A stretch of DNA of 40,698 bases from a virus, in the IMG/VR virus record IMGVR_UViG_3300033142_000163, positions 1 to 40,698 of that record. One strand, written 5' to 3'. Position numbers and translations under genes: made by a program. Below are positions 2,561-24,105 of the stretch, piece after piece. Numbering within the stretch: the first letter of the stretch is position 1; each line of letters opens with the position of its first letter. Below the pieces are notes generated by a model. It ran no database searches and was not told the DNA's origin. It saw only the letters and a list, made by a program, of their open reading frames with translations.

Positions 2561-4114
2561 ATGTCAGATAACATAGTTAAAAATCTAAGCTTTGGGCACG
2601 AAGCTAAAAAAGAGGTTTTTAAAGGTATAGAAAAATTAGCTAAAGCAGTTAGTTCAACTCTTGGAGCTGGAGGAAGTTGTGTTTTGCTAGAAGATAACTT
2701 TGGAAACCCAACAATAACAAAAGACGGTGTAACAGTAGCGGAAAGTGTAGTACTTAGAAACCCAATAGAAAACTTAGGGTGCAACTTGTTAAAACAAGCA
2801 GCAAAAAAAACAGTAAAAGAAGCGGGTGATGGTACTACAACCGCAACCGTTTTAGCTCATGCGATATTAGAAGAAGCTGATAAAATAGATTCTAGTATAA
2901 ACAATAGAGAATTAAAAAAAGGTATAAATGATACTGTTGGTAAAGTAATACAATATTTAGATGATATATCATTACCAGTAAAAGGCAATATGATAAATCA
3001 AATAGCTACAATATCAACAAATAATGATAAAGAGCTAGGAAATTTAATAGGAAAAGCTTTTAATTCAGTTGAAAATACTGGTGTTGTTATGATGGAGCAA
3101 TCTGAGTCTGGTCAAACAGAATTAGAAATTATAGAAGGTGCTCAATACTTTAAAGGTTTAACAAGCCCTCATTTTGTTACAAATAAAATTAAAAATACAG
3201 CTGAGTTAAATAATCCTTTAGTTTTATTAATAGAAAATAACGTAGAAAGTATAAGACAAATACAGTCTGTTTTAGAGTATGTTATTAAAAATAATAAACC
3301 ATTATTAATAATTGCAGACTTAAGCAATGAAGTTTTATCTGCTTTAGCAATGAATAAAACAAAAGGTAACATAAAAGTAAATGTAATAAACGCTCCTGTT
3401 TTAGGAGTTAATAGAAAACAAATGCTTGATGATTTAGCTATATTAACAGGGGCTACATTAATAAATGAAGATCTTGGAGATGATATGGATTTAATTCAAG
3501 TTGATCATCTTGGTTCTTGTTTAAAATCAATAACAAGCGAAACAGACACAATACTTCAATTTGAAAAACAAAATGAAGATTGTTTAAGTATTACAAATAA
3601 AATAAAAAAGCAACTTTTAACTTGTAAAATACCTGATAAAATAATAAGTTTAGAAAAAAGATTAGCAATGCTTTCTGCTAAAATAGCAGTTGTAAAAGTT
3701 GGTGCTAATTCTGAAATAGAGTTAAAAGAAAAAATGGATAGAGTCGAAGACGCTATCTGTGCTACAAAAGCCGCTGTCAAAGAAGGTATTGTACCAGGCG
3801 GAGGTGTTGCTTTATTAAATGCTTCTCTTTATTTAAAAAGTAAAAATAAAGCTGAAGAAGTATTAATAAAAGCTATAACAGCCCCTTATAAAACAATACT
3901 AAAAAATGCTGGACTAAAATTTGAAATTTTTAATAAGAAAGGTTTTGGTTTAGATGTAGTTACAGGAAGTATGGTAAACATGACTAAACAGGGAATTATT
4001 GACCCTGTCTTAGTTACTAAAAGCGCTTTAAAAAACGCGGCTTCTGTAGCAACTACTATATTATCTACTGATTGTGTAATAAATAATTTAAGAGTAGATG
4101 AAGGCGGTAGGTAG
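2561..4114 (+). CDS. groEL: Phage-encoded group I chaperonin (GroEL, Hsp60)
   Basis: This 517-residue protein is recognisable as GroEL along its length. The ATP-site segments are present: TKDGVTVA with Asp55, GDGTTTATVLA with Asp90, and RVEDA with Asp397, corresponding to E. coli Asp52, Asp87 and Asp398. The catalytic residues therefore look intact. The apical domain has EGAQYFKGLTSPHF (usually a Tyr where His sits) and INAPVLGVNRKQMLDDLAIL. The C-terminal equatorial domain has VPGGGVALLNA and GIIDPVLVTKSALKNAASVA. It is ~25-30 residues shorter than typical bacterial GroEL and ends in NLRVDEGGR, with no Gly-Gly-Met tail. The 3' end overlaps groES by 17 bases. It presumably folds virion proteins too large or too divergent for the host chaperonin; its true clients are unknown. 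Confidence 0.95.
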   Translation: MSDNIVKNLSFGHEAKKEVFKGIEKLAKAVSSTLGAGGSCVLLEDNFGNPTITKDGVTVAESVVLRNPIENLGCNLLKQAAKKTVKEAGDGTTTATVLAHAILEEADKIDSSINNRELKKGINDTVGKVIQYLDDISLPVKGNMINQIATISTNNDKELGNLIGKAFNSVENTGVVMMEQSESGQTELEIIEGAQYFKGLTSPHFVTNKIKNTAELNNPLVLLIENNVESIRQIQSVLEYVIKNNKPLLIIADLSNEVLSALAMNKTKGNIKVNVINAPVLGVNRKQMLDDLAILTGATLINEDLGDDMDLIQVDHLGSCLKSITSETDTILQFEKQNEDCLSITNKIKKQLLTCKIPDKIISLEKRLAMLSAKIAVVKVGANSEIELKEKMDRVEDAICATKAAVKEGIVPGGGVALLNASLYLKSKNKAEEVLIKAITAPYKTILKNAGLKFEIFNKKGFGLDVVTGSMVNMTKQGIIDPVLVTKSALKNAASVATTILSTDCVINNLRVDEGGR

Positions 4115-4358
4115 AAACATTATTATTAAAAAGCTTAAAGAAGGAACTACTAAAACGAAAGGTGGTTTGTTATTAGCTGAAAACCATAGAGATGACATTA
4201 GATATGTTCAGGCTACAGTTTACTCTGTTGGCGATGAAATACAAGGTTTAAATAAAAATGATGTTATATTGTATGATCGGCACGCTGGTCATAAAATAGA
4301 ATATGAAAAAAATATATATCACGTTATAAAAATACAAGACGTGGTCGTTGTTTTATGA
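4098..4358 (+). CDS. groES: Phage-encoded co-chaperonin (GroES, Hsp10)
   Basis: This 86-residue protein is slightly shorter than bacterial GroES (about 95-100). It has the GroES beta-barrel start (AVGRNIIIKKLKE) and a mobile loop at about residues 15-33 (EGTTKTKGGLLLAENHRDD). The hydrophobic GGLLLA tripeptide in the loop corresponds to the GGIVL motif that docks into GroEL. The C-terminal half has DVILYDRHAGHKIEYEKNIY and VIKIQDVVVVL, matching the usual final strands. The start lies inside the 3' end of groEL in another frame, and the stop overlaps the next ATG as ATGA, so translational coupling is likely. Having both partners implies a self-sufficient chaperonin system rather than only a host-GroEL adaptor like T4 gp31. 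Confidence 0.92.
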   Translation: MKAVGRNIIIKKLKEGTTKTKGGLLLAENHRDDIRYVQATVYSVGDEIQGLNKNDVILYDRHAGHKIEYEKNIYHVIKIQDVVVVL

Positions 4359-4802: not shown

Positions 4803-5867
4803 ATGGGTTTTAAATCAAGCATGCCTTATTCGTTTAATCCTCAACTAGAAAAACAGGTTGAACTAAGCAGATTTGATAGAGATTTTGGTGTAAAAAATCT
4901 TAATGCTAAAATAGCTGGTAGAAACGAAGATATAGTATCTTTCGAAGATTACCAAAAATACGGTGGTAAAGCACCTAGTACAGCTGTTGATAGATATGGT
5001 ATGCCTGTTTATAAAGGAAAAGACCTAAACAAGCCATATTTTCAGCAACCAGATCACATAAGATATGACGAGGCTAATGTAACTGATTTAGACAGACAGG
5101 GTATGGGTTATAAGAAGTACCAAGAAAATCTTGCTTATCAACAACAACAAGCTGATCTAAAAACATATGGTGATGCTGGTAGACCAACTATAATAAATGA
5201 CACGATGCAAAATACTCAAGAAAACCAAAATATGCTACTAGGTGATTCTAGTCCTTTCAATGACACTACTCAAAATGCAGCCACAGGTATATATGGTAAT
5301 TTACAAGAAAGAACAGCTGCTGTATCTCCTTTAGCTAAAAAAATAGATCCAAAAGCAATATTTAATGCAGTAGACGCATATAATACAGCTATGAATTTAG
5401 GAGGAGCGATAGCAAGTCAAGCACAATCACCAGGTGTAAATAGTTATAACACCAAGTCAAATTCAACGAGTAGTGTTCCACTACCTGGTTTACCAACAAG
5501 TTCAACAAAACCATCAACTAATACTGGTTCATATAGCAACCCATTAAATAACCCAGGCGGAACTCAAAACACTATAAATTTAAACACTGGAGGTAATACT
5601 CAAAATTCAAAATATTCTTTTTTAGACAATCAAGATTCTTTTAAAATAAGTGATCCTAATCGGAGTTCTTTTTTAGGTACTTATAAAAGAAATACAAAGT
5701 CTTTTGATGATAGAATAGCAAAGGCTACTGAGCAAGGTAAAATGAGAAAAGTAGCTAGACTAAAACAAAGACAGGAAAACTTTAATGAAAATCAAAAGCA
5801 ACAAGGAGGTATAAATATAGGTTTTAGAATGCCTTTTGGTAAAAACAAAAATAAAAAAATAATTTAA
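4803..5867 (+). CDS. Hypothetical low-complexity protein, possibly virion-associated
   Basis: This 354-residue protein has no recognised catalytic motif. Residues 1-130 are polar and charged with many Tyr and Gln. Residues ~200-275 are low-complexity Ser/Thr/Asn/Gly (SNSTSSVPLPGLPTSSTKPS and similar). The last ~70 residues are strongly basic (RMRK-type segments ending GKNKNKKII). One VSPLAKK segment resembles the SPxK-type motif of the following small genes. It starts two bases after the previous stop and is transcribed with the cluster to 6929. A structural or DNA-associated role is possible but unproved. Confidence 0.5.
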   Translation: MGFKSSMPYSFNPQLEKQVELSRFDRDFGVKNLNAKIAGRNEDIVSFEDYQKYGGKAPSTAVDRYGMPVYKGKDLNKPYFQQPDHIRYDEANVTDLDRQGMGYKKYQENLAYQQQQADLKTYGDAGRPTIINDTMQNTQENQNMLLGDSSPFNDTTQNAATGIYGNLQERTAAVSPLAKKIDPKAIFNAVDAYNTAMNLGGAIASQAQSPGVNSYNTKSNSTSSVPLPGLPTSSTKPSTNTGSYSNPLNNPGGTQNTINLNTGGNTQNSKYSFLDNQDSFKISDPNRSSFLGTYKRNTKSFDDRIAKATEQGKMRKVARLKQRQENFNENQKQQGGINIGFRMPFGKNKNKKII

Positions 5868-5877
5868 AAACAAAATT

Positions 5878-6096
5878 ATGCATCATAGAAAATACGATCC
5901 ATCAATGGAAAGATTAAAGCCAGGAACAAAAGTAGGTGTTGTAGGTGAAAACGCAATATGGGACGGACCATTAGACCAAGTTGGTAGAGCTCATAAACCA
6001 GGAAGTAGTTCAGGAGCTGATCCTATAGAAGTATTAAAGGCTTCATGTGAATGTGGAGCTGGTATGCCTATAACTAAAAGAGCTAAATTAGGATAA
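5878..6096 (+). CDS. Small hypothetical protein
   Basis: This 72-residue protein starts after an A-rich leader (AAAAACAAAATT) without a Shine-Dalgarno sequence. It is Gly/Pro/Lys-rich (MERLKPGTKVGVVGENAIWD) and has a CECGAG segment near the C-terminus. A lone CxC is not enough to claim metal binding. Its stop overlaps the next ATG by one base. I do not recognise the family. Confidence 0.55.
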   Translation: MHHRKYDPSMERLKPGTKVGVVGENAIWDGPLDQVGRAHKPGSSSGADPIEVLKASCECGAGMPITKRAKLG

Positions 6097-6251
6097 TGGC
6101 AAGTTCACCAATAAAAAAAATTAGTTCAGCATGTAAAGCTGCTGCTAAAAGAAAATTTAAAGTATGGCCTAGCGCTTATGCTTCAGGCTGGGGTGTGCGC
6201 TGTACTAAAGCTGGAGGTCCTAGTAAATTTGGTGGTAAAAAGAAAAAATAA
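6096..6251 (+). CDS. Very small basic protein with SPIK and WPSAYAS motifs
   Basis: This is a 51-residue frame tightly linked by one-base stop/start overlaps on both sides (TAATG at 6094-6098 and 6249-6253), which strongly supports it as a real gene. It begins MASSPIKKISSACKAAAKRK, continues FKVWPSAYASGWGVRCTKAG and ends GGKKKK. The K-V-W-P-S-A-Y-A-S pattern recurs, as I recall, in small uncharacterised basic proteins of marine phages and large DNA viruses. The function is unknown; its charge suggests nucleic-acid binding. Confidence 0.7.
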   Translation: MASSPIKKISSACKAAAKRKFKVWPSAYASGWGVRCTKAGGPSKFGGKKKK

Positions 6252-6622
6252 TGCAAGGATATAAGCAACCCTTTAATTCACCTGTATTAAAAAGATGTTG
6301 GCCTGGTTACTCTGCTGTTCCTGGCAAAGATCCATATAGTAAAGGTAGTTGTAAAAAAAATTCACCAGTTAAGAAGAAAAAACAAAAAGGCGGTGGTACA
6401 ACCAAAACTTGTTTACCAGCTTCTAAAATAAGAAGCATGAGTAAAGAACAAAGACAAAAGCTAGTTAACTCTAAAAAAGCAGCTGGAGCCAAAGGTAAAT
6501 ATAAAAGATCATCAAAAACAAACGTAAAAGGAGCTCGTAAAAAAGGAGCTACATTACGTGACTGGTTTGAAAAAGAAGACTGGAGAAGAGTAGATGATCC
6601 AAGTAAAAAATGTGGAGAATAA
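6251..6622 (+). CDS. Lys-rich small protein, DUF5872-like segments
   Basis: This 123-residue, strongly basic protein has two SP motifs (NSPVLK at 9-14 and NSPVKKKK from 37). Two further segments look familiar: CLPASKIRSMSKEQRQKL with KKAAGAKGKY, and LRDWFEKEDWRRVDD near the C-terminus. Both resemble parts of DUF5872 proteins of phages and algal viruses, but apparently in the opposite order. That is from memory and needs a profile search. Opposite-strand open frames here are hydrophobic mirror images of AAA-rich codons and are not genes. It overlaps both neighbours or sits one base from them. Confidence 0.7.
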   Translation: MQGYKQPFNSPVLKRCWPGYSAVPGKDPYSKGSCKKNSPVKKKKQKGGGTTKTCLPASKIRSMSKEQRQKLVNSKKAAGAKGKYKRSSKTNVKGARKKGATLRDWFEKEDWRRVDDPSKKCGE

Positions 6623-6623
6623 T

Positions 6624-6929
6624 ATGACTTGGTTAAAAAGAATAAAAGAATCATCATCAATAGAATCACCGTTACATAAAAACGAGCCAAGAAAAACTAC
6701 TAAGGGTAAAGGTAGAAATTTTAGAACTACTAAAGAAGGCGCTGGTATGACAGAAAAAGGCGTTAAAGAGTATAGAAAAAAAAATCCTGGTAGTAAACTT
6801 AAAACAGCTGTAACAGGTAAAGTAAAACCTGGCAGCAAAGATGCTAAAAGAAGAAAATCATTCTGCGCTAGATCCAAAGGTTGGACAGGCGAAAGAGGTA
6901 AAGCAGCGCGTAGACGCTGGAAATGTTAA
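6624..6929 (+). CDS. Small basic protein, DUF6321-like
   Basis: I chose ATG 6624 (MTWLKRIKES), one base after the preceding stop, over the upstream in-frame ATG at 6594 that lies inside the previous gene. This gives 101 residues. The core GAGMTEKGVKEYRKKNPGSK, then LKTAVTGKVKPGSKDAKRRK and SFCAR, followed by a terminal RRRWKC, matches my memory of the DUF6321 family of phages and large DNA viruses. An IESPLHK motif is present near residue 15. The function is unknown; the high Lys/Arg content suggests nucleic-acid association. Confidence 0.7.
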   Translation: MTWLKRIKESSSIESPLHKNEPRKTTKGKGRNFRTTKEGAGMTEKGVKEYRKKNPGSKLKTAVTGKVKPGSKDAKRRKSFCARSKGWTGERGKAARRRWKC

Positions 6930-6940
6930 AATAAAAAATT

Positions 6941-7285
6941 ATGCCATCACCAATTAAAAATCATCACGACAAAAAAAATATATTGCAAGACGACGGGTCT
7001 TCAATAAAAGTATCATCAAGCGATCTACAAAAAAGAGGAGTAGACGCTATTAAAAGTCAAATGTTACAAAACAATCCTCCTGGTAGTAAAGGTAGAAGAG
7101 CTGTTTATGACAAACTTGACTGGAAATATGATAATACAATACCAAAAACTTTTTCAGAAAAAGTTAGTGACTTTACTAGTGATGCTAAAAAGTTTGTTAA
7201 TAAAAACAAATTTAAAATCGCAGATGCTGCGACAGGTGGATTACTTGGCATTGGTAAAAGCATAATAGACAAACTCAAACAATAA
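6941..7285 (+). CDS. Small hypothetical protein with N-terminal SPIK motif
   Basis: This 114-residue protein begins MPSPIKNHHDKKN and continues with charged, probably helical sequence. Near the C-terminus there is a small apolar segment (AATGGLLGIGKSIIDKLKQ), too short and Gly-rich for a confident membrane helix. It follows an AT-rich 11-base spacer. It belongs to the run of SPxK-motif genes and has no recognised domain. Confidence 0.6.
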   Translation: MPSPIKNHHDKKNILQDDGSSIKVSSSDLQKRGVDAIKSQMLQNNPPGSKGRRAVYDKLDWKYDNTIPKTFSEKVSDFTSDAKKFVNKNKFKIADAATGGLLGIGKSIIDKLKQ

Positions 7286-7313
7286 CAACAACAATAACAA
7301 AAACAAAACCAAA
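7286..7313 (+). promoter_or_regulatory. A/C-only unstructured leader before the gene at 7314
   Basis: The 28-base spacer contains only A and C apart from one T, with no G, so it can form neither a Shine-Dalgarno helix nor a hairpin. A comparable CAAAAACAAAAACAAA run precedes the gene at 7932. Bacteroidota are known to initiate largely without Shine-Dalgarno pairing and to favour A-rich leaders, so this is read as a translation-initiation leader adapted to such a host. Confidence 0.5.
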
Positions 7314-7868
7314 ATGGGAAATTATTCAGGAAATCATCCGAGATATTCTTCGGGTCAAAAATATGATGCTAGAGAAGCTTACAATAAAGACCTTACTGCT
7401 AAAGCTAGACTGCATTATTTAGAAAATAGTGAACACGACAAACACTCTCATCCAGCAAAAAAGCACTGTGTTGCTAAAATGTACGGAGAGCCAGCTGCTA
7501 AAATGTATGGAGATCCAGCACCTAAAGTAGCTGTAAAAGACATGCCAGACGCTCAAAGAAAAGCTGTAATGGCTAGCAAAGCTGAGGCTGCTGCTAAAAT
7601 GGAGCACGCTCCTAAAAACTTAGGCTTTATAAAAGCTGAAACTTTAAAGAAAGATCCAAACGCAAAAACAATGCAAGTAGATGGAGAAACTTTTCCTATA
7701 AAAAACCTAGCTGATTCAGACGATATTAAAGATATGTCTGGAGCTTATAATGCTATGGGTGATGCAAACGATCCAGCTATGATGAAAGGAGATCCTATCA
7801 TGCTTAAAAAGATTCATGCGTTAAAAATGAAAGTCGATAAAGGACTTAAATTTGGATTAAAAGGATAA
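7314..7868 (+). CDS. Hypothetical soluble protein with short tandem repeat
   Basis: This 184-residue protein is rich in Ala, Lys, Met and Asp. Residues ~47-70 contain an imperfect tandem repeat (AKMYGEPA, AKMYGDPAP) next to a HPAKKHC segment. The C-terminal half has several Met-rich stretches (DPAMMKGDPIMLKK). There is no recognisable enzyme motif, signal peptide or membrane segment. The A/C-rich leader and position put it in the basic-protein cluster before the structural protein at 7932. Confidence 0.55.
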   Translation: MGNYSGNHPRYSSGQKYDAREAYNKDLTAKARLHYLENSEHDKHSHPAKKHCVAKMYGEPAAKMYGDPAPKVAVKDMPDAQRKAVMASKAEAAAKMEHAPKNLGFIKAETLKKDPNAKTMQVDGETFPIKNLADSDDIKDMSGAYNAMGDANDPAMMKGDPIMLKKIHALKMKVDKGLKFGLKG

Positions 7869-7931
7869 CAGTAGGGAACTGTAAAACCCAAGTCAAACAA
7901 ATTCATTAACACAAACAAAAACAAAAACAAA

Positions 7932-8321
7932 ATGGCAAAATTCATTAAATTTAATATTGTTGACACTAGCACACCTGCAAATCAAAAAGCACACTTACTA
8001 GATGTTGATAATATCGGGGACATTTCTTACGATGGAACAAACAAAGTAAGTATTGTATTAAGATCACCAGCTGGTGGAAACTCACAAGCTGCAGGGATTG
8101 CTGGAAGAGTTGTAGAAATAGAAGTATCTAAAGCTAAAGGTGCGCTAACTAATCCAACAATCACTAATGGTTCAGCTGCTCCTGATCAGGCTATTGTAAA
8201 AGCTATGACTGCTAATCCAGGTGGTGTTGCTGCTACAGCTCAATTAGGTAAAGACGAGTCTGCTAGTCCAGCACAAATGTACTGGCACTCATGGGCCGTT
8301 GTAACTGATACAACTGTATAA
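7932..8321 (+). CDS. Putative small virion structural protein (decoration-like)
   Basis: This 129-residue protein opens with MAKFIKFNIVDTSTPANQKA and has an even beta-type composition rich in Ala, Thr, Val and Gly with few cysteines or long helices. Proteins of this size and composition in phages are often head-decoration or tail-associated subunits. The strong A/C-rich leader before it and the hairpin terminator straight after it (8346-8376) suggest high, self-contained expression, as expected for a structural protein. Identity is inferred. Confidence 0.5.
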   Translation: MAKFIKFNIVDTSTPANQKAHLLDVDNIGDISYDGTNKVSIVLRSPAGGNSQAAGIAGRVVEIEVSKAKGALTNPTITNGSAAPDQAIVKAMTANPGGVAATAQLGKDESASPAQMYWHSWAVVTDTTV

Positions 8322-8345
8322 AAACTAACCATCAATTAAATATAT

Positions 8346-8376
8346 CCTCGCGGCTTAACTGTCGCGGGGTTTATTT
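8346..8376 (+). terminator. Rho-independent-type terminator
   Basis: CCTCGCG (8346-8352) pairs with CGCGGGG (8363-8369) through 7 base pairs including one T-G wobble, with a 10-base loop, followed by TTTATTTAT. It lies in the 71-base gap between two genes and is far more G+C-rich than its surroundings, as expected for a terminator hairpin. Confidence 0.75.
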
Positions 8377-8392
8377 ATAAAAAAACTAATAT

Positions 8393-8860
8393 ATGGGTTC
8401 ACCTATAAAACACTGTTGGAGTTCTTTAATGCATAGTCCTGAGTGGAACAAAGCAAGAAAAAGATCTGGCGCTGGAACTGGAAATGACGCTTCTTTAAAA
8501 GCAGCTAAAAGCAAAAGAACTTCTCCTTTAAAAATGGGTTTTAAAATGAAAGGATCACCATATAATGAAGAAAATTCTAACACACCTATAATGCACGTAG
8601 ATATGGGTGATGATACTTTAGGTATGGCTACTAACAATGGTAGTATACTTATAAATAAAGACATTAAAGATCCAAAGCAAAAACAAGATGTCATAGATCA
8701 TGAAATGGTGCATATTAAACAAATAAAAGATGGTAGGCTAAGTTATGATGACGATAATGTTTATTGGGAAGGTAAAACGTATTCAAGAGATGATATGAAT
8801 GAAGGTGCAAAAAATTTACCTTGGGAAAAAGAAGCTTATCAAAAAACTAAAAATGCTTAA
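8393..8860 (+). CDS. Small HExxH zinc-metallopeptidase-like protein
   Basis: In this 155-residue protein, residues 1-60 are a basic region with SPIK, HSPEW, TSPLK and GSPYN motifs (MGSPIKHCWSSLMHSPEWNK). Residues ~70-155 form a compact domain with DHEMVHIKQ at 102-110, where His103, Glu104 and His107 form an HExxH zinc site. A downstream PWEKEAYQK offers a candidate third ligand. This matches the shape of small zincin domains found in phage cargo or polyvalent proteins. It is the first gene after the 8346 terminator and stops three bases before the next ATG. The substrate is unknown; it may act on virion proteins or be delivered into the host. Confidence 0.65.
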   Translation: MGSPIKHCWSSLMHSPEWNKARKRSGAGTGNDASLKAAKSKRTSPLKMGFKMKGSPYNEENSNTPIMHVDMGDDTLGMATNNGSILINKDIKDPKQKQDVIDHEMVHIKQIKDGRLSYDDDNVYWEGKTYSRDDMNEGAKNLPWEKEAYQKTKNA

Positions 8861-8862
8861 TT

Positions 8863-10809
8863 ATGGGACTTAAAAAAAATTATTTCGGAAAACTAAGAAG
8901 TTCTAGTCCTGTTAAAATGCATGAAGGTAAACCTCATAGCAAAAAAGATGGTCAACAAATAGTTGATGATTTAGAATATAAAACTCAATCAGAGAGAGGT
9001 ATGTCAGATGCAGAATATGCTAAATACTTTGGAGAAGGTTCGATACATAGACCAAATCTTGATGAAGTGGTAGTAAGATCAGATGTAGATTATAATCAAT
9101 ATCCTTTATTTGATGAACTTTCTGATCAACAAAAAGAATATTTTAATGACTCAGGGGCAATTGGCAGAGGTGTTAGAAGAAGAGCTCAAACAAGCGAAGG
9201 TTTAGCTGGTGATGTCACAGATATGGTAACAGGTATGTTAGTAGATCAGCCTTTAGCGGTGCTACAAACTCCTCAATCACTTATGGTTGAAGGTATAGAA
9301 GCTTTGAGAGGAAATCCTTACAACTTTGCAGATGCTCTTTCACCTGGATCACAAAGACTACCATCTGAAACAATGGGTTTTGAAGATAAACCTGGATGGG
9401 ATTTAGGAGGTTCTTTAAATACAGCTATGGATATAGTAGCAGATCCAACTAATTTAATCGGAGCTGGATTACTAACTAAAGGTTACAAAGGAGCTAAAGC
9501 AGTAAAAGGACTAGCAAACAAAGCAGATGATTTAGTTTATAGTTTGGCTGCAAAAGGAGACGAAGCTGCTAGTGCGGCTAGTAAATTACCAGAATCACCA
9601 GGTATATTTGGAAGATTTAATCCAAAAACTAGAGAATCTATGTATAATACTCTTGAAGATTTAAGTAAAAACGCTGAGGTTAGTAAGTTTGAAAGATTAA
9701 AAACAATGGAGCGATTAAATACGCCTGAAGGTCGAAAAAGATTATATGATCAAGAGCTAGGTTATTTACAGGGTGAAATGGAAAAATTAAGAAAAACATT
9801 GCAAAACCCAAAAGCACAAGCTCATCCATTTATAAGAAAACAAACACCTGGTAATGAATTTTTAGAAATTGAACAAAACGTTTTAGGTGGTCTTGGCACA
9901 AAAACAAAAAAACTATTTGATGCTGACTTAGCTGAACAAGCACAAAAAAATGTTGATTTTAGAATACAAGAAATTTCTAGACCTAATTTAAATGAAAGGG
10001 CAGCTGAGGCTATAAAAGGAGGAAAATTAAATTACAGCCAAGCAGAAGACATATTATATAATTCTGTTCCTCAAAAATATTTAGATTCCAATGCTACTTT
10101 TGGTGGTTTTAAACAAGCTAATGATGTTAATAGATTTTCATTACAAGGCGTTCAAAATGCTTCTCAATTAAATAAAGGTAATTTTATTTTAGGAAATAAA
10201 AATCTGCCTAAACCAAAAACAACTTATGCTCACGAGCAACAACACGGTTTTCAAGTTGGTAGAACAACACCTCTTGACAAAGATTTATCTAGTGGTATTA
10301 AACCTAACAAAGAGGTTTTAGATTATAACAAAAAATATGATGATCTGCTATCTGCAAGAGATAATATAAGTGCTTATAGCGATAATTTTGTTGAAAAATA
10401 CAAAGCAGCAGATTCAAAACTTAAAGATCTTGTAGCAAATAAACCAGCATCAGTCATAGATTACAATTATTTTAAATATGGCGGAAGTGGAAACATGGAG
10501 CCTAGAGCTTTTGCAGGAGAATTAAGACAATCCTTGCTTGATCAAGGTTTTATAAAAAATCCTTATGATAAAATAACTCCACAGATTTTATCTAAAGCTA
10601 AAAATTATTTTGATAAAAATCCAGCAATTCAAGCCGTGTTAAAAAGTGGTGGTAGAGATGTAAACGTAAGTGGTACTAGAATTCTTGATTTTATGGATAA
10701 ATCTAAAAGTAATTTTTCTTCATTAGCTAAATCAATGAATAAATTACCAGCTATTACGGGCGGTTTATTTAGTGGTAAAATGGTTTTTAGTGGAGATAAA
10801 AATAAGTAA
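8863..10809 (+). CDS. Large polyvalent-type protein with HExxH metallopeptidase-like domain
   Basis: This 648-residue protein has an N-terminal SSSPVK motif at 13-18. A helical region follows, with an apolar, Ala/Gly-rich stretch around residues 180-225. The C-terminal domain carries AHEQQHGFQVG with His457, Glu458 and His461, and about 85 residues later EPRAFAGELRQ, whose Glu546 or Glu553 could be the third zinc ligand. This HExxH plus distant E-containing helix is the layout I expect of zincins in phage large polyvalent proteins. The protein is probably packaged with DNA and injected, but that is inference. It forms a two-gene unit with the smaller HExxH gene before it. Confidence 0.6.
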   Translation: MGLKKNYFGKLRSSSPVKMHEGKPHSKKDGQQIVDDLEYKTQSERGMSDAEYAKYFGEGSIHRPNLDEVVVRSDVDYNQYPLFDELSDQQKEYFNDSGAIGRGVRRRAQTSEGLAGDVTDMVTGMLVDQPLAVLQTPQSLMVEGIEALRGNPYNFADALSPGSQRLPSETMGFEDKPGWDLGGSLNTAMDIVADPTNLIGAGLLTKGYKGAKAVKGLANKADDLVYSLAAKGDEAASAASKLPESPGIFGRFNPKTRESMYNTLEDLSKNAEVSKFERLKTMERLNTPEGRKRLYDQELGYLQGEMEKLRKTLQNPKAQAHPFIRKQTPGNEFLEIEQNVLGGLGTKTKKLFDADLAEQAQKNVDFRIQEISRPNLNERAAEAIKGGKLNYSQAEDILYNSVPQKYLDSNATFGGFKQANDVNRFSLQGVQNASQLNKGNFILGNKNLPKPKTTYAHEQQHGFQVGRTTPLDKDLSSGIKPNKEVLDYNKKYDDLLSARDNISAYSDNFVEKYKAADSKLKDLVANKPASVIDYNYFKYGGSGNMEPRAFAGELRQSLLDQGFIKNPYDKITPQILSKAKNYFDKNPAIQAVLKSGGRDVNVSGTRILDFMDKSKSNFSSLAKSMNKLPAITGGLFSGKMVFSGDKNK

Positions 10810-10837
10810 ATCGTAATTAATCAAAATAACATGTAAC

Positions 10838-10864
10838 TATTTATATATAGATTATATATAAATA
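10838..10864 (+). promoter_or_regulatory. Perfect AT-only inverted repeat before the gldL-like gene
   Basis: TATTTATATATA (10838-10849) and TATATATAAATA (10853-10864) form a perfect 12-base inverted repeat around GAT, 15 bases before the ATG at 10880. It could be an operator or a promoter core; its right arm contains TATAAATA, the T4-type late promoter sequence. The hairpin would be weak because it is all A-T. The function is inferred from symmetry and position. Confidence 0.4.
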
Positions 10865-10879
10865 ATTAAATTAAATGTT

Positions 10880-11784: not shown

Positions 11785-11789
11785 AAAAA

Positions 11790-12350: not shown

Positions 12351-12383
12351 TAAAAAAATATATTAATCAAATTTAATTAAATC

Positions 12384-13454: not shown

Positions 13455-13680
13455 AGAACTTATAAAGGTTGCTAAAGAACCTATTGTAGATTCAGACGAT
13501 GATATATCTGCAGACAGACTTAAAAATGCTGCAGCAACAAAAAAATTAGCAATATTCGATGCTTTTGAAATATTACAACGTTTACAAGAAGAAGAGGATA
13601 TGTTAAACGAAAAACCAAAAGAAGTTAAAAAAGAAAGAACTTTTGCTGGTTTTGCTGAAGGTAGATCTAAAAATGTATAA
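13399..13680 (+). CDS. Putative terminase small subunit
   Basis: This 93-residue, mainly helical protein (KKNIIQAGRVAVEELIKVAK; SADRLKNAAATKKLAIFDAF) has a short basic C-terminus. Size, helical character and position immediately before the large terminase gene fit a small terminase, which recognises phage DNA and feeds it to the motor. Its start lies 56 bases inside the preceding gene and its end overlaps the terL start by eight bases, suggesting coupling. No helix-turn-helix is certain by eye. Confidence 0.6.
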   Translation: MSTKETKKNIIQAGRVAVEELIKVAKEPIVDSDDDISADRLKNAAATKKLAIFDAFEILQRLQEEEDMLNEKPKEVKKERTFAGFAEGRSKNV

Positions 13681-15889
13681 TCAAACTTTATATAAAATAC
13701 TAGAAGATCATATTCCAAGTAAAGTTTTAAAAAGAAATAATAAAAACAGTAGTTGGGAATATGGTTATAACGAAGAACACGATGTTGTAGTTATAAGTAA
13801 AACTGGTAAAATAGGTCAAGTTTATGAGATACAAAACTTAAAAATAGCTTTACCAAAAAAAGAAAATATATATAAGTTTGATAACAATAAGTGGACACAA
13901 TTTGAATATCCAAAAGAGTTAGATAGAATTAAATCTACTTTTGATTGGAAACAATATCCACTAGATTTTAAAGAAAAGTGGTATGATTACATCGATAATG
14001 AGTTTACTCGTAGGGAGAAAGGTTTTTGGTTTTATAACAAAGACATTCCTACTTATATTACTGGTACTCATTACATGTACTTGCAGTGGAGTAAGATTGA
14101 TGTCGGGGCACCAGACTTTCGGGAGTCAAATAGATTATTCTTCATTTTCTGGGAAGCTTGTAAAGCCGATGATAGATGTTACGGACTGTGCTACCTTAAG
14201 AACAGACGTTCTGGGTTTTCCTTTATGGCGTCAGGAGAGGTGGTTAACTTGGCAACCATATCATCTGACTCTAGATATGGTATATTATCAAAGTCCGGTC
14301 CTGATGCTAAAAAGATGTTCACAGACAAGGTGGTACCCATATCGGTTAATTACCCCTTCTTTTTCAAGCCGACCCAGGACGGTATGGACCGCCCAAAGAC
14401 CGAGCTTGCCTACCGTGTACCAGCCTCCAAGTTTACCCGTAGAAAGCTCACCGCTGCCTACGACGAAACCGAGGACGAATTACAGGGATTGGACACCACG
14501 ATCGACTGGAAGAATACCGGCGACAACTCCTACGATGGGGAAAAACTTAAACTCCTCGTCCATGATGAAAGCGGTAAATGGGAAAAGCCGAACAACATCC
14601 TCAACAACTGGAGGGTTACGAAAACCACGTTAAGATTAGGTGGTAGAATTATAGGTAAGTGTATGATGGGATCAACTAGTAATGCACTTGACAAAGGTGG
14701 TAATAACTTTAAAAAACTATATTATGATTCGAACGTCAAAGAAAGAAACGCCAATGGAGAGACTCGCTCAGGATTATATTCTTTGTTCATACCTATGGAA
14801 TGGAACTACGAAGGATACATTGATTCTTATGGCTTACCTGTCTTCGAAACTCCAATCGAAAATACAGAGGGTCCGCACGGAAGAAAAATAAAAATAGGTG
14901 TACTAGAATATTGGCAAAACGAAGTTGATGGTTTAAAAAAAGATCAAGAAGGTTTAAATGAATTTTATAGACAGTTTCCAAGAACAGAACAACATGCGTT
15001 TAGAGACGAAGCTAAACAATCTTTATTTAACTTAACTAAAATATACGAACAAATAGATTATAACGAAGATTTTAGAACAAACACTTTTGTTACAAAAGGA
15101 TCGTTTCAATGGCAAAATGGTGTTAAAGATACTAAGGTTTTATTTGTTCCTAATGATTCAGGTAGATTTAGTGTAACTTGGGTTCCACCTTTAAATTTAC
15201 AAAATCGTGTAATAATTAAAAATGGATTAAAATACCCAGGAAATGAACATTGTGGTTCTTTTGGTTGTGATCCATATGACATATCAGGTACTGTTGACGC
15301 GCGTGGTTCTAAAGGATCACTTCACGGATTAACAAAGTTTTCAATGGAAGATGTACCTAATAGTATGTTTTTTTTAGAATACATAGCAAGACCACAGACT
15401 GCTGAGATATTTTTCGAAGATGTTCTTATGGCTTGTGTATTTTATGGAATGCCTATATTAGCAGAAAATAATAAACCTAGACTTTTATATCATTTTAAAA
15501 GAAGAGGTTATAGAGGTTATTCTATGAATAGACCAGATAAAGTATATATGAAATTATCTGTAACAGAAAGAGAAATAGGTGGAATACCTAATTCAAGTCA
15601 AGATATAAAACAAGCTCATGCGGCTGCTATAGAATCCTATATTGAAAATTATGTAGGTAAATTAGACGAAGGTTATGGAAACGTATATTTTCAAAAAACT
15701 TTAGAAGATTGGTCTAGATTTGATATAAATGATAGAACAAAACACGATGCTTCTATTAGTTCAGGTTTAGCAATAATGGCTTGTAATAAAAATCTTTACA
15801 CGCCAGTTTTTAAAAGAAAATTAGAAGTTAAAAACCTTGGTTTTAAAAAATATGACAATAAAGGATTTAGTTCAAAAATAATAAGATAA
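13673..15889 (+). CDS. terL: Terminase large subunit (packaging ATPase / nuclease)
   Basis: I chose ATG 13673 (MYNQTLYKIL, 738 residues), eight bases inside the previous gene; an in-frame ATG at 13643 would add ten residues. The ATPase domain has a variant Walker A, LKNRRSGFSF at about 175-184, of the KxRRxGxS kind, followed by conserved FTDKVVPISVNYPFFFKP and KLLVHDESGKWEKP; the D-E there is the likely Walker B pair. The C-terminal nuclease has GSFGCDPYDIS with Asp533 and DRTKHDASISSGLA with Asp692 as candidate metal ligands of the RNase H-like fold. It pumps DNA into the prohead through the portal encoded next. Residues about 220-320 are encoded by DNA of strikingly higher G+C than the rest. 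Wording of several motifs matches crAss-like terminases as I remember them. Confidence 0.93.
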   Translation: MYNQTLYKILEDHIPSKVLKRNNKNSSWEYGYNEEHDVVVISKTGKIGQVYEIQNLKIALPKKENIYKFDNNKWTQFEYPKELDRIKSTFDWKQYPLDFKEKWYDYIDNEFTRREKGFWFYNKDIPTYITGTHYMYLQWSKIDVGAPDFRESNRLFFIFWEACKADDRCYGLCYLKNRRSGFSFMASGEVVNLATISSDSRYGILSKSGPDAKKMFTDKVVPISVNYPFFFKPTQDGMDRPKTELAYRVPASKFTRRKLTAAYDETEDELQGLDTTIDWKNTGDNSYDGEKLKLLVHDESGKWEKPNNILNNWRVTKTTLRLGGRIIGKCMMGSTSNALDKGGNNFKKLYYDSNVKERNANGETRSGLYSLFIPMEWNYEGYIDSYGLPVFETPIENTEGPHGRKIKIGVLEYWQNEVDGLKKDQEGLNEFYRQFPRTEQHAFRDEAKQSLFNLTKIYEQIDYNEDFRTNTFVTKGSFQWQNGVKDTKVLFVPNDSGRFSVTWVPPLNLQNRVIIKNGLKYPGNEHCGSFGCDPYDISGTVDARGSKGSLHGLTKFSMEDVPNSMFFLEYIARPQTAEIFFEDVLMACVFYGMPILAENNKPRLLYHFKRRGYRGYSMNRPDKVYMKLSVTEREIGGIPNSSQDIKQAHAAAIESYIENYVGKLDEGYGNVYFQKTLEDWSRFDINDRTKHDASISSGLAIMACNKNLYTPVFKRKLEVKNLGFKKYDNKGFSSKIIR
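14341..14640. other. High-G+C tract inside the large terminase gene
   Basis: Hand counting gives 151 G+C in 300 bases (50%), and 97 in 180 (54%) for 14341-14520, against 36 in 120 (30%) at 15601-15720 in the same gene. Codons such as GCC, CCC, CGC, CTC and ACC cluster here and are rare elsewhere in the window. A milder rise extends from about 14100 to 14880. The encoded protein is continuous and conserved in appearance. This looks like a recombination or gene-conversion tract from a higher-G+C relative. Confidence 0.85.
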
Positions 15890-18304
15890 ATGATTTACAC
15901 TAATTACGCAGGTTCGTTTCCTAGTCAGGTAGTATCTGATGAAGAAAAGCAAAGTTATGATTATGGTTACGCCGTAGGACGAGCTATTGAAGGAGAGTGG
16001 TTTTCTGGAGATAGAGGGGGTTTAGGTAATAGATACCAGAACAGCTGGTTAAATTTTCATAGATTAAGACTTTACGCAAGAGGTGAACAACCTGTACAAA
16101 AATACAAAGATGAATTAGCTGTCAATGGCGATTTATCTTATTTAAATTTAGACTGGAAACCAGTACCTATTATACCTAAGTTTGTAGATATAATAGTTAA
16201 TGGTATGTCTCAAAAAATATTTGACATTAAAGCTTTTGCTCAAGATCCTGAATCTTTAAAGCAAAGAACAAAATATGCAGACGCTATAATGCGAGATATG
16301 TATGCTAAAGAAATAATTGAAGCAACTAATCAAGCTACTGGTATGAATTTTTTCAATACCAATGATCCTAATAATATACCAGAATCTCAGCAAGAATTAG
16401 ATCTTCATATGCAATTAAGCTATAAACAATCAATTGAAATAGCTGAAGAAGAGGCTATAGAAAATGTTTTATCTTATAACAAATACGAATTAATAAAGAA
16501 AAGATTAATACAAGATTTAACTATAATAGGTATAGCTGCTGTTAAAACAGATTTTAATTTAGCTAATGGTGTTACTGTTAATTATGTTGACCCTGCTAAT
16601 TTAGTTTATTCTTACACAGAAGATCCTAACTTTGATGATATATACTATGCTGGAGAAGTTAAATCAATAAGCTTAGTTGAGCTTAAAAAACAATTTCCTG
16701 GTTTAACAGATGAAGAACTTAAAAAAATAGAAAAATTTCCAGGTGACGCAAATTATACTAGAAATTTTTACGCACAACAAGATTCATATAATCAAGTTCA
16801 AGTTTTATATTTTGAATATAAAACATATAGCAATCAGGTATTTAAAATAAAACAAACAGATCAAGGTTTAGAAAAAGCCTTAGAAAAACCAGATACTTTT
16901 AATCCTCAACCAAATGATAATTTTGAAAGAGTAGGTAGAAGCATAGAGGTTTTATATACAGGAGCAAAAATACTTGGTCACGAAATGATGTTAGATTGGA
17001 GACTATCTGAAAATATGACTAGACCTAATTCTAATTTAACAAAAGTTAATATGAATTACTCTATATGTGCACCACGTATGTACAAAGGTGCTATTGAGTC
17101 TACAGTTAGCAGAATAACAGGTTTTGCTGATATGATACAATTAACACATTTGAAGTTACAACAAGTATTATCACGCATGGTTCCTGACGGTGTTTTTGTT
17201 GATGTAGATGGTTTAGCTGAAGTTGATTTAGGTAATGGAACAAATTATAATGCGTCTGAAGCGTTAAATATGTATTTTCAAACAGGTTCTATTGTTGGTA
17301 GATCTATGACGCAAGATGGCGATTTAAATAGAGGTAAAGTGCCTATTCAAGAGCTTCAAACAAGTAATGGCGGCGCTAAAATACAAAGCTTAATTCAAAC
17401 TTATCAATATTATCTACAAATGATACGTGATGTAACCGGTTTAAATGAAGCAAGTGACGCTAGCACACCTAGTAAAGACGCATTAGTAGGTTTACAAAAA
17501 TTAGCTGCTGCTAATTCAAATACTGCATTAAGACATATTATGCAAGGTGGTTTATATTTAACATTGAGATCTTGTGAAAATATAGCTCTTAGAATAGCAG
17601 ACGCGTTAAATTACCCTTTAACAAGAGCTGCTTTAATAGATTCTATATCTTCATATAACACAGGAACTTTAGAAGAATTACAAGAAAAAAATCTTCAAGA
17701 TTTTGGTATATTCTTAGAATTAGAACCAGATGAAGAAGCTAAAGCTCAATTAGAGCAAAATATACAAATAGCTTTGCAGTCAGGCGGTATAGATTTAGAC
17801 GATGCTATAGATATTAGACAAGTTAAAAACATAAAATTAGCAAATGCTTTATTAAAGCAGAAACGTAAAGAAAAAGCTAAAAAAGATCAAGAAAACCAAA
17901 GAGCTAATATACAGGCTCAAGCTCAAGCAAACGCACAAGCTTCTGAAGCTGCTATAACCGCAGAAATGCAAAAACAACAAGCTTTAGCAGAAACTGAAAT
18001 ACAAATTGAAACCTCTAAAATGCAATTAGAAATAAAGAAAATGTTACAAGAGGCGGAAATAAAGAAAGGTTTGATGGCTGAGGAATTTCAATACAATATG
18101 CAGTTAGCAAAAATAAAAGCTGATGCAGAGACTCAAAAAGAACAAGAAATAGAAAATAGAAAAGATAATAGAATAAAAATGCAGGGTTCTCAAGAGTCAA
18201 AACTAATAGATCAAAGAAAAAATAATACATTACCTCAAGATTTTGAATCCGCTGGATTTGATAATTTAGGTGGTTTCGGGTTAGAACAATTTGACCCTAG
18301 ATAA
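15890..18304 (+). CDS. Portal protein
   Basis: This 804-residue protein begins directly after the terL stop. The segments DLTIIGIAAVKTDFNLANGV, VNYVDPANLVYSYTEDPNFD and TGLNEASDASTPSKDALVGL with NSNTALRHIM are characteristic, as I recall, of portals of crAss-like and related Bacteroidota podoviruses. The last ~150 residues are a long Gln/Ala/Lys-rich coiled coil (ANIQAQAQANAQASEAAITA and following). They then end in a Gly/Phe-rich tail. The portal forms the dodecameric ring at one capsid vertex through which the terminase pumps DNA and to which the tail binds. Position between terL and the scaffold-like gene supports this. Confidence 0.88.
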   Translation: MIYTNYAGSFPSQVVSDEEKQSYDYGYAVGRAIEGEWFSGDRGGLGNRYQNSWLNFHRLRLYARGEQPVQKYKDELAVNGDLSYLNLDWKPVPIIPKFVDIIVNGMSQKIFDIKAFAQDPESLKQRTKYADAIMRDMYAKEIIEATNQATGMNFFNTNDPNNIPESQQELDLHMQLSYKQSIEIAEEEAIENVLSYNKYELIKKRLIQDLTIIGIAAVKTDFNLANGVTVNYVDPANLVYSYTEDPNFDDIYYAGEVKSISLVELKKQFPGLTDEELKKIEKFPGDANYTRNFYAQQDSYNQVQVLYFEYKTYSNQVFKIKQTDQGLEKALEKPDTFNPQPNDNFERVGRSIEVLYTGAKILGHEMMLDWRLSENMTRPNSNLTKVNMNYSICAPRMYKGAIESTVSRITGFADMIQLTHLKLQQVLSRMVPDGVFVDVDGLAEVDLGNGTNYNASEALNMYFQTGSIVGRSMTQDGDLNRGKVPIQELQTSNGGAKIQSLIQTYQYYLQMIRDVTGLNEASDASTPSKDALVGLQKLAAANSNTALRHIMQGGLYLTLRSCENIALRIADALNYPLTRAALIDSISSYNTGTLEELQEKNLQDFGIFLELEPDEEAKAQLEQNIQIALQSGGIDLDDAIDIRQVKNIKLANALLKQKRKEKAKKDQENQRANIQAQAQANAQASEAAITAEMQKQQALAETEIQIETSKMQLEIKKMLQEAEIKKGLMAEEFQYNMQLAKIKADAETQKEQEIENRKDNRIKMQGSQESKLIDQRKNNTLPQDFESAGFDNLGGFGLEQFDPR

Positions 18305-18320
18305 AAAAAATTGTAAATTT

Positions 18321-18336
18321 TTAATTATATTATATT
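18321..18336 (+). promoter_or_regulatory. 15-base AT element before the scaffold-like gene
   Basis: TTAATTATATTATAT occupies 18321-18335, one base before the ATG at 18337. The identical 15-mer lies at the same distance before the gene at 21073, and a close variant precedes 29076. It could be a promoter giving nearly leaderless mRNA, or a translation-start element. Role inferred from exact repetition. Confidence 0.5.
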
Positions 18337-19536
18337 ATGTCAGAAAAAAACAATGAACCTGTAAAACAGGAAGGAGATTTTAAAATTAAATCTAAAAAAA
18401 GAGTTCCTAAAAAACTTACAACACCAGAAGAAACAATTAAAATGGATATGGCTTCTGCTAAAAAAGAGGAACCTGCAAAAATAGATTTATCAAAAACAAA
18501 AGAAAAACAAGATGCCGTTCAAAAGCAAGAAACAGAGAGCAGCGTGTTACGCGAAGAAGGATCCGAGGTGGGATTGCAAAAAGTGGGACAAACACACGAA
18601 GAGCCCGCTGAGACTGTTATTAAAGAAATACCAGTAGAAGAAAACAAAGAAGAAAAAGAAATAAAAAAACAAGTTGAAGAGGCTGTAAGAGATGAAAAAG
18701 TTTTAGGTAAACCATTACCTGAAAATATTGAAAAGCTTGTTAATTTTATGGAAGAAACTGGTGGAACGGTTCAAGACTATGTAAGACTAAGTGCTGATTA
18801 CAGTAAAGTAGATGACACTAGCTTACTAAGAGAATATTATAAAAATACTCGTCCACATTTAGATTATGAAGAAGTTAATTTTTTATTAGAAGATAACTTT
18901 AAATATGACGAAGAAGTAGACGATGAAAGAGATGTTAGAAAGAAAAAACTAGCATATAAAGAAGAAATTGGAAAAGCTAAAAGCTTTTTAGAAGATCTTA
19001 AAGGTAAATATTACGATGAAATCAAGTTGAAATCAAACGTAAATAAAGATCAACAAAAAGCAATTGACTTTTTTAATAGATACAATGAGGAACAAAAAGT
19101 GTTATCCAAACAACGAGAAGATTTTGAACGTGTAACAAGAAGTACTTTTAATGATAAATTCGAAGGTTTTGATTTTGATTTAGGAGAAAAAAAATTTAGA
19201 TACGGTATTAAAAATCCAAACGAAGTGGTTGACAATCAACTAGACATTACTAATTTTGTTAAGACGTTCTTAAATGAAAAAGGTGTACTAGAAGATGCAA
19301 AAGGTTATCACAAAGCCATGTATGCTGCAAGAAATGCAGATACAATAGCTAAACATTTTTACGAACAAGGCAAAGCCGACGCTGTAAAAGACGTTGTTGC
19401 TAAGTCTAAAAACATAACTACAGAACCTAGAAAAGAAGGCAATGCTGGAAGTGTTTTTGTTAATGGTCTAAAAGTAAGGGCTATAAGTGGTGCTGATTCT
19501 TCTAAATTAAAGATAAAAACAAAAAAATTTAACTAA
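18337..19536 (+). CDS. Putative capsid scaffolding protein
   Basis: This 399-residue, highly charged protein is rich in Lys and Glu with long helical stretches (EENKEEKEIKKQVEEAVRDE), few aromatics in the N-terminal third, and no Cys. Location between the portal and major capsid genes, the helical charged composition and the size are all typical of scaffolding proteins, which shape the prohead and then leave or are cleaved. A short segment, SSVLREEGSEVGLQKVGQ at about residues 68-85, is encoded by a locally G+C-rich stretch (30 of 60 bases at 18541-18600). No protease motif was seen. The identification rests on context and composition. Confidence 0.65.
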   Translation: MSEKNNEPVKQEGDFKIKSKKRVPKKLTTPEETIKMDMASAKKEEPAKIDLSKTKEKQDAVQKQETESSVLREEGSEVGLQKVGQTHEEPAETVIKEIPVEENKEEKEIKKQVEEAVRDEKVLGKPLPENIEKLVNFMEETGGTVQDYVRLSADYSKVDDTSLLREYYKNTRPHLDYEEVNFLLEDNFKYDEEVDDERDVRKKKLAYKEEIGKAKSFLEDLKGKYYDEIKLKSNVNKDQQKAIDFFNRYNEEQKVLSKQREDFERVTRSTFNDKFEGFDFDLGEKKFRYGIKNPNEVVDNQLDITNFVKTFLNEKGVLEDAKGYHKAMYAARNADTIAKHFYEQGKADAVKDVVAKSKNITTEPRKEGNAGSVFVNGLKVRAISGADSSKLKIKTKKFN

Positions 19537-19552
19537 TTAAAAATTAAAGATT

Positions 19553-20992
19553 ATGGCTTTAACACCACAATTTGGGTCAATTGTCCCATCTCAAAAGCAA
19601 GAAGTCTTAAATAGCAATTATCTACAGTGGACTGACAAAGCTGCTGCTGATTTTGTAGATTTCGCGCAACAATACCTACCTGAGGTATACGAACAAGAAG
19701 TAGAGCGTTATGGAAACAGAACGTTAGGCGGATTTTTACGTATGGTAGGGGCTGAAATGCCTATGACCTCTGATCAAGTAATTTGGTCTGAGCAAAACAG
19801 ACTACATATAGCTTATACTGGTCTTACACCTGCTTACGGTGCAAGTAATGTTATCAATTTTACAGGTACAGCTGCTGATGTAATTAACGTTATATCTGTA
19901 GGAGCTACTATCGTAGTTTTAGATGACAATGGAGTAGAAGCAAAATGTTATGTTAGTGCTACTGTTCCTGGTGGAGCTGGTGTAGGACAAATTACTGCTC
20001 TACCTTATACTGCTAATACTTTAGCTCTTGCTGGTTTAACTGGTAAAGTAAAAGTATTTGTATATGGTTCTGAATACGCTAAAGGTTCTTCAACACCTAA
20101 TTATAGTGCAACTTCAACAGACGGCTATATTAGTGTTGATCCTTCATTTAAGCAATATTCTAACTCACCAATCATTATTAGAAACAAATACGTTGTAAAT
20201 GGTTCTGATATGGCACAAATCGGTTGGGTAGAAGTTGCAACTGAAGACGGAACTTCTGGTTATTTATGGTATTTAAAAGCAGAGTCTGAAACAAGACTAC
20301 GTTTTGAAGATTACCTAGAAATGGCTATGGTTGAAGGAGAATTAAAAAATAACGCTGCTATTCCTGCTGGATTAGGTGGTACTCAAGGTTTATTTGCTGC
20401 TATCAACGATAGAGGTAATGTACAAACTGGTTTTACTGCTGCTGCTGGAATTGATGCTTTTGATGCAATTCTTAAAAACTTAGACACTCAAGGTGCTATT
20501 GAAGAAAACATGCTTTTCTTACAGAGACAAACTGCTCTTGACTTTGATGACATGCTAGCTAGCATTTCTGGCGGATACGCTGGAGGTACTGCTTTTGGTT
20601 TGTTTGAAAATTCTGAAGAAATGGCTCTTAACCTTGGATTTTCAGGTTTCCGTAGAGGATCTTATGATTTCTACAAAACTGACTGGAAATACTTAAATGA
20701 CGCTTCTACAAGAGGTGGAATGGTTGGACCTTCATCAATCGAAGGTGTTTTAATTCCTGCTGGAACTTCAACAGTATATGATCAAATCTTAGGTACTAAC
20801 ATTAGAAGACCTTTCTTACACGTAAGATATAGAGCTTCTCAAGGTGATGACAGAAGAATGAAATCATGGTTAACTGGTTCTGCTGGTGGTGCTTTTACAT
20901 CTGATCTAGATGCTATGGAAGTAAACTTCCTATCTGAAAGATGTTTAGTAACACAAGCTGCTAACAACTTTGTATTATTCAAAGGATTATAA
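19553..20992 (+). CDS. Major capsid protein
   Basis: This 479-residue protein starts MALTPQFGSIVPSQKQEV; YLPEVYEQEVERYGNRTLGG, FLRMVGAEMPMTSDQVIW and SEQNRLHIAYTG follow. These match the N-terminal region of crAss-like major capsid proteins as I remember it. A beta-rich insertion follows at about 85-180, then a long mixed domain ending SERCLVTQAANNFVLFKGL, compatible with an HK97-type fold. It is more G+C-balanced than its neighbours, in keeping with high expression. It follows the scaffold-like gene by 16 bases and is closed by the strongest hairpin terminator in the window, which would isolate its abundant transcript. Confidence 0.9.
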   Translation: MALTPQFGSIVPSQKQEVLNSNYLQWTDKAAADFVDFAQQYLPEVYEQEVERYGNRTLGGFLRMVGAEMPMTSDQVIWSEQNRLHIAYTGLTPAYGASNVINFTGTAADVINVISVGATIVVLDDNGVEAKCYVSATVPGGAGVGQITALPYTANTLALAGLTGKVKVFVYGSEYAKGSSTPNYSATSTDGYISVDPSFKQYSNSPIIIRNKYVVNGSDMAQIGWVEVATEDGTSGYLWYLKAESETRLRFEDYLEMAMVEGELKNNAAIPAGLGGTQGLFAAINDRGNVQTGFTAAAGIDAFDAILKNLDTQGAIEENMLFLQRQTALDFDDMLASISGGYAGGTAFGLFENSEEMALNLGFSGFRRGSYDFYKTDWKYLNDASTRGGMVGPSSIEGVLIPAGTSTVYDQILGTNIRRPFLHVRYRASQGDDRRMKSWLTGSAGGAFTSDLDAMEVNFLSERCLVTQAANNFVLFKGL

Positions 20993-21009
20993 TAATCCAT
21001 AGGTGATAT

Positions 21010-21036
21010 TTACCCCTGATGTAATTTCAGGGGTAA
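21010..21036 (+). terminator. Strong hairpin terminator after the major capsid gene
   Basis: TTACCCCTGA (21010-21019) and TCAGGGGTAA (21027-21036) form a perfect 10-bp stem with a 7-base loop. Eighteen bases separate it from the capsid stop. The following CTATTACTCTT is only moderately T-rich. A strong terminator after the capsid gene is a common phage arrangement. Confidence 0.8.
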
Positions 21037-21056
21037 CTATTACTCTTATAAACTAT

Positions 21057-21072
21057 TTAATTATATTATATC
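21057..21072 (+). promoter_or_regulatory. 15-base AT element before the gene at 21073
   Basis: TTAATTATATTATAT occupies 21057-21071, one base before the ATG, identical in sequence and spacing to the element before 18337. It lies directly after the capsid terminator, where a new promoter would be needed, which favours a promoter role. Confidence 0.55.
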
Positions 21073-21828: not shown

Positions 21829-21845
21829 CATGTAATACTAATATA

Positions 21846-21866
21846 GGGCTCGATTACTCGGGCCTT
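21846..21866 (+). terminator. Weak hairpin, candidate terminator
   Basis: GGGCTCG (21846-21852) can pair with CGGGCC (21859-21864) leaving one bulged G and one T-G wobble, with a six-base loop, followed by TTATGTT. It is the only G+C-rich stretch in the 60-base gap, so it may be a weak terminator. Confidence 0.5.
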
Positions 21867-21888
21867 ATGTTAAAATAAAGATATAAAA

Positions 21889-22833: not shown

Positions 22834-22839
22834 TAAGAT

Positions 22840-24102: not shown

Positions 24103-24105
24103 TAC

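Follow-up and report, generated by a model that had tools for sequence, protein, structure and literature searches.

The 40.7-kb viral contig IMGVR_UViG_3300033142_000163, analyzed over its whole length and called the window here, carries GroEL and GroES genes (2561..4358, + strand), a series of small accessory genes (4803-12850) and the terminase large subunit gene TerL (13673..15889, + strand, phrog_6681). GroEL/GroES and TerL form the left and right edges of the accessory module. Genes for a portal, a scaffold-like protein, a major capsid protein and ring-type proteins follow (15890..24102, + strand). Family matches assigned the portal to phrog_6547 and the MCP-type structural protein to phrog_13704; the labels "scaffold" and "ring" were given by gene position and by eye. 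The window comes from a marine phage with kinship to Cellulophaga phi38:1 and the Flavobacterium elemo phages, and spans its GroEL-to-TerL plus head and tail module. Among cultured phages that share its capsid protein, the closest were Flavobacterium elemo phages, Cellulophaga phi38:1-like phages and Maribacter phage Panino, and the closest record overall was the environmental MW202828. In one relative (G001 23275-24711, L167), the major capsid protein frame has one in-frame TAG; apart from this, the protein matches the window's at 100% identity. A 148-aa protein beside GroES (4355-4801) has no Pfam match and a winged-helix look by eye. It is present in nearly all contigs with the N-terminal tag described below, and in a diverged form in untagged relatives.

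GldL is a motor protein of gliding and type IX secretion in Bacteroidota. Its N-terminal membrane domain (PF22827, E 2.4e-23) was found in a window protein (10880-11320), which points to a Bacteroidota host, and also in a related locus (L254 3081-3503). A decoy, exclusion or lysis role of this phage protein is possible. Bacteroidota genome bins also gave matches, in agreement with such a host; some matches fell in archaeal or proteobacterial bins, apparently cases of mis-binning.

The initial annotation had reported S-P-[I/V/L]-K/H motifs in the proteins starting at 6096, 6251, 6624, 6941, 8393 and 8863, and translation found every one that it had named, all seven strict ones among them. All six genes are on the + strand. 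The DUF5872-like small basic protein (6096..6251) begins with MASSPIKK (SPIK 6105-6116, residue 4). The small CWPGY...SKGSC protein (6251..6622) has two motifs, SPVLK at 6278-6292 (FNSPVLK, residue 10) and SPVK at 6362-6373 (KNSPVKK, residue 38). The DUF6321 protein (6624..6929) contains IESPLHK (SPLHK 6666-6680), at residue 15 when counted from ATG 6624. This ATG, inside ORF 6594-6929, is most likely the start, since relatives begin with MTWL. Another small protein (6941..7285) begins with MPSPIKN (SPIK 6947-6958, residue 3). The HExxH protein (8393..8860) begins with MGSPIKH (SPIK 8399-8410, residue 3) and has a second motif, RTSPLKM (SPLK 8522-8533, residue 44). In the 648-aa protein with an HEQQH motif (8863..10809), SSSPVKM places SPVK at 8905-8916, residue 15; its relatives read HSPLKMH at this site. 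The motif had been described as mostly close to the N-terminus. This holds for the six proteins, at residues 3-15, and fails for the looser VSPLAKK (5325-5339) of the 354-aa protein (4803..5867, + strand), which is internal, at residue 175. It is a weak case, probably a bystander rather than a tag.

HExxH zincin motifs occur in three window proteins: HEMVH (8393-8860), HEQQH (8863-10809) and HEFLH (33170-40528). The core of the 8393-8860 protein is predicted by its AlphaFold model to be minigluzincin/SprT/IrrE-like, and the fold likeness is weak.

Within-protein shuffling was used as the control for enrichment. The pattern SP[ILVMF][KRHN] occurred 8 times in the genes from 4803 to 8863, against 0.38 expected, and none of 1000 shuffles reached 8. 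It was carried by 7 proteins, against 0.36 expected, and the remainder of the window had none. One of the 8 matches, SPFN at residue 150 of the 4803 protein, was not in the initial list. Relatives were then gathered by their portal and by their DUF6321 protein, together with 11 long contigs. Because ORF calling took the longest frames that did not overlap, a few start sites may be off. SP-hydrophobic-(x)-[KRH] was present within the first 45 residues in 33 of 269 unrelated small-protein families, against 3.1 expected, which bears out the proposal that otherwise unrelated small proteins share an N-terminal tag, one that behaves like a targeting signal. As some families are low-complexity variants of one another, this number is a slight overestimate. 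At the family level, SP ranked first of 400 dipeptides in this N-terminal context, with a ratio of 11 (3.5 for the runner-up), and large protein families had the tag no more often than by chance. Among the tag matches, 52 of 99 began in residues 1-30, against 5.6 expected. De novo enumeration of three-residue patterns in 428 N-termini, one per family, also put SP-hydrophobic at the top (44 vs 15.8, P 10^-8.4), where the best null pattern reached 10^-5.5. A width-12 EM motif search was uninformative and returned only hydrophobic signal sequences. A lack of enrichment over shuffled proteins had been named as an outcome against the proposal; enrichment was found both in this phage and in its relatives. 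Short, lysine-rich proteins do lift the background, and the tag could in principle be a chance or composition effect. Every shuffle control contradicts this explanation, which was ruled out and has a negligible probability.

The tag is confined to late-strand accessory proteins, and core virion and assembly proteins do not have it. In the window, the proteins encoded at 15890..24102 are untagged. In loci chosen by portal only, it was present on 26 of 239 small non-core accessory proteins (3.6 expected) and on 1 of 635 core proteins (7.8 expected). In the long contigs, with DUF6321 omitted, 22 of 197 accessory proteins on the late strand were tagged, against 2.1 expected, and 1 of 316 on the early strand, against 2.2 expected. 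The two strands were inferred from which one bears the head and tail genes. All 11 of 11 contigs with DUF6321 had tags. This correlation was kept out of the evidence, because most of these contigs were chosen via DUF6321.

A longer tag, approximately M-[AGS]-[FY]-K-[ML]-x-G-(x)n-S-P-[FLIVMYA]-(x)-[K/R/H], has the SP motif as its second half. The initial annotation was correct about the SP half and missed the preceding FK half. In relatives, unrelated proteins begin with MAFKMKG, often followed by SP-x-K, such as MSGPFKMKGSPMKRNFGIGASPAKQ, MAFKMKGMSFKNSPLKKD and MAFKMKGFPMIQGSSPAKNYN. Of 64 proteins having both halves, 59 had the FK half ahead of the SP one. Members of the HExxH family begin with a nearly invariant M-[AGS]-F-K-[MLI], even though this region is predicted to be disordered. 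The window copy has gained an extra front piece of 47 residues with two more SP motifs, and its SPLK at 8522-8533 is followed by the other half of the tag, MGFKMKGSPY (8534-8563). Among the matches listed by a homology-free DNA scan of IMG/VR for MAFKMKG, 74 of 80 loci had genes of this clade, and several unrelated tagged ORFs were present per listed locus. In AlphaFold models, pLDDT was about 37-55 for the tagged tails and about 80-96 for the cores, which predicts that the tails are disordered. These features fit a short linear motif in the flexible tails of late, hypervariable accessory proteins.

DUF6321 and DUF5872 proteins were compared with and without the tag. Window ORF 6594-6929 passed the Pfam cut-off for DUF6321 (PF19846; 45.1 bits vs 28.5). 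The 6096 protein was under the cut-off for DUF5872 (PF19197; 17.5 bits vs 27.5), and its kinship to this family is through the KAAAKRKFKVWPSAYA core only. In pelagiphages, a methylophage and a cyanophage, DUF6321 proteins begin right at the core and are untagged (e.g., MAIRKTTKGKNANYRPTKSGAGMT), whereas those of the clade begin with MAYVQHGSPFTRLRKTTKG or MTWLARQRSASPFKEIKKTTKG. SP-hydrophobic was present in 58 of 63 N-terminal extensions of DUF6321, against 5.9 expected by shuffling; the 63 are distinct extensions of at least 8 residues, grouped into several classes, and some of them are not independent of each other. The DUF5872-like core behaves in the same way, and its pelagiphage form is untagged, as in HTVC027P gp49, a homologue of the 6096 protein. 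The cassette of pelagiphages and cyanophages has the same protein cores as the window and, in HTVC027P, the same order (DUF5872, a small protein and DUF6321), but its proteins lack the N-terminal tag. By these sequence comparisons, the tag is a clean add-on segment to existing protein cores. In the loci L351-L356, the pelagiphage DUF6321 gene sits among small genes, and the methylophage one adjoins endonuclease and terminase genes. Given these surroundings, DUF6321 probably did not serve originally as a virion protein.

The selected residues argue against several readings. A hydrophobic residue followed SP in 104 cases, against 37 expected, and a basic one in 14, against 12 expected. TP in place of SP was found 9 times, against 7.1 expected, so that no substitution was seen; AP, GP and PS were at or near chance, and NP and SA were slightly raised. 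The pattern [ST]P[KR][KR] was at chance level, with 11 cases against 10.9 expected. The initial annotation had suggested minor-groove DNA binding of the SPKK/histone H1 type. The tag shares with histone H1 and with kinase sites (S/T-P-x-K) the S-P-x-K spelling, but differs from the SPKK motif in its hydrophobic third residue, the lack of TP and the lack of SPKK enrichment. Tagged proteins are lysine-rich, which would suit DNA binding, and are more basic than untagged ones; against DNA binding, 21% of them have an acidic body. A relative (G002 45145-45927, reverse-complemented contig of 68,415 bases, loci L180-L183) encodes a 260-aa protein with eight SPxK motifs, whose SPAKKYKKSPAKKYKK repeats resemble a histone H1 tail. 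Its SPAKK repeats speak for DNA binding, and the idea may fit individual proteins. As an account of the tag itself, SPKK-like or histone H1-like DNA binding is highly improbable. A proline-directed kinase site was also rejected, because TP was at chance and the third residue is constrained; a one-residue spacer is allowed. The hydrophobic third residue, together with SPKK and TP at chance, excludes both SPKK and a general proline-directed kinase site.

A DNA or RNA element near start codons, or exon-like swapping of N-termini of common ancestry, could mimic a protein motif. In line with this, the serine codon TCA was used in 98 of 194 motif cases, against 27% overall, and some extensions are clearly related to one another. 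However, the motif cases used six serine and four proline codons and had 98 distinct 9-mers in 194 cases, and the motif also occurs away from a start codon, at residue 44 of the 8393 protein. The varied codons indicate selection at the protein level, with the mild TCA bias left unexplained, and we regard an element or swapping as very unlikely.

The tag is patchy among relatives. Cultured relatives with the common MCP, portal and scaffold had no tag, and a search for tagged proteins in cultured phage records found no isolate with it. No mention of FKMKG was found in the literature. Three loci with a close TerL (L333, L336 and L345) have almost no tags, which suggests that the function of the tag is dispensable or replaced there. 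Co-variation of tag presence between proteins of one genome was not significant (P about 0.19). TerL relatives in bacterial genome bins gave few strict matches (SP 5 vs 2.8), and 9 against 2.4 expected when asparagine was allowed and only small non-core proteins were counted; some of them gave zero tag matches. Pfam scans assigned no function to any of the ten tagged proteins examined from relatives.

Homologues of phi38:1 gp99 and elemo gp20, which are annotated as virion structural proteins, were tagged in 5 of 14 relatives. The window homologue (30749..31429, + strand), ejection-protein-like, is untagged. Only through this homology would the tag be linked to the virion; a virion proteome of the clade was looked for and not found. 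The tag might instead bind a structure of the infected cell, such as the phage GroEL, a membrane, the nucleoid or a host enzyme, and localize or fold late proteins that are never packaged. The clustering of tagged genes next to the phage GroEL/GroES and the greater basicity of the tagged proteins would agree with this. Against it, several relatives carry the tag on a virion protein family, and early proteins are untagged, though localization would profit them too. We consider such targeting within the cell unlikely.

Proteolytic processing is a further candidate: a phage protease, such as the 8393 HExxH protein, could trim proteins at the tag during maturation or after entry. No prohead protease family was recognized in profile searches, and the HExxH protein is a candidate protease. 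Its family belongs to the accessory module and bears the tag as well, its fold weakly resembles minigluzincin/SprT/IrrE proteases, and disordered tails suit cleavage. However, the tag has no invariant scissile position and is sometimes repeated (6251 and 8393) or extended in front, and the HExxH protease was not found in the tag-bearing contig G012, which may be partial. Processing is quite unlikely to be what the tag is for. As in T4, processing and targeting do not exclude each other.

Cargo-loading peptides of encapsulins are short, flexible and basic-hydrophobic and bind an HK97-fold shell; they are usually C-terminal and found on dedicated cargo enzymes. The clade tag is likewise short, flexible and basic-hydrophobic, but differs from them in its position and its carriers. 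In phage T4, the capsid targeting sequence (CTS) steers internal proteins to the scaffold core, and gp21, a prohead protease, cleaves it off. For the clade tag, scaffold binding and cleavage would be hypothetical, and the two spellings, compared by eye, are unlike. The T4 internal proteins are a highly diverse set with the conserved CTS alone in common (PMC3012670). As in the clade, a short N-terminal tag is found on diverse, hypervariable, small and often basic late proteins (IPI, IPII, IPIII and Alt; PMC3012670). The clade tag is of the T4 type in that late proteins which are otherwise unrelated bear a conserved tag at the N-terminus. In crAss001, a podovirus of Bacteroidota, the head and tail hold a large load of virus-encoded proteins, including gp45, gp46 and RNA polymerase subunits (PMC10172136). 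Unlike the small tagged proteins of the clade, these are large conserved proteins, and no common tag is seen on them in the excerpts of that paper used here (PMC10172136).

By analogy, we give an even chance to the reading that the tag is a cargo or capsid-targeting signal, which would work like the CTS of T4 internal proteins with another sequence. One phage protein (the scaffold, the inner capsid face or the portal) would bind the tag during assembly. The tagged proteins would travel as cargo in the particle and, once ejected into the next host, would act there as early effectors. The tag would perhaps not be cleaved, unlike the T4 CTS. More tentatively, a clade of marine Bacteroidota phages may pack fast-changing effectors into heads via its own FKMxG...SP-hydrophobic-x-K address, read by the capsid or scaffold and independent of T4.

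If the tag is a packaging address, a sequence rule would predict which unknown small proteins reach the host first in an abundant marine phage group, and this first-entering set would be expected to hold anti-defence and takeover proteins. The tag would also be a short peptide with which foreign proteins could be loaded into phage heads, and a CTS-like solution would have arisen again outside T4.
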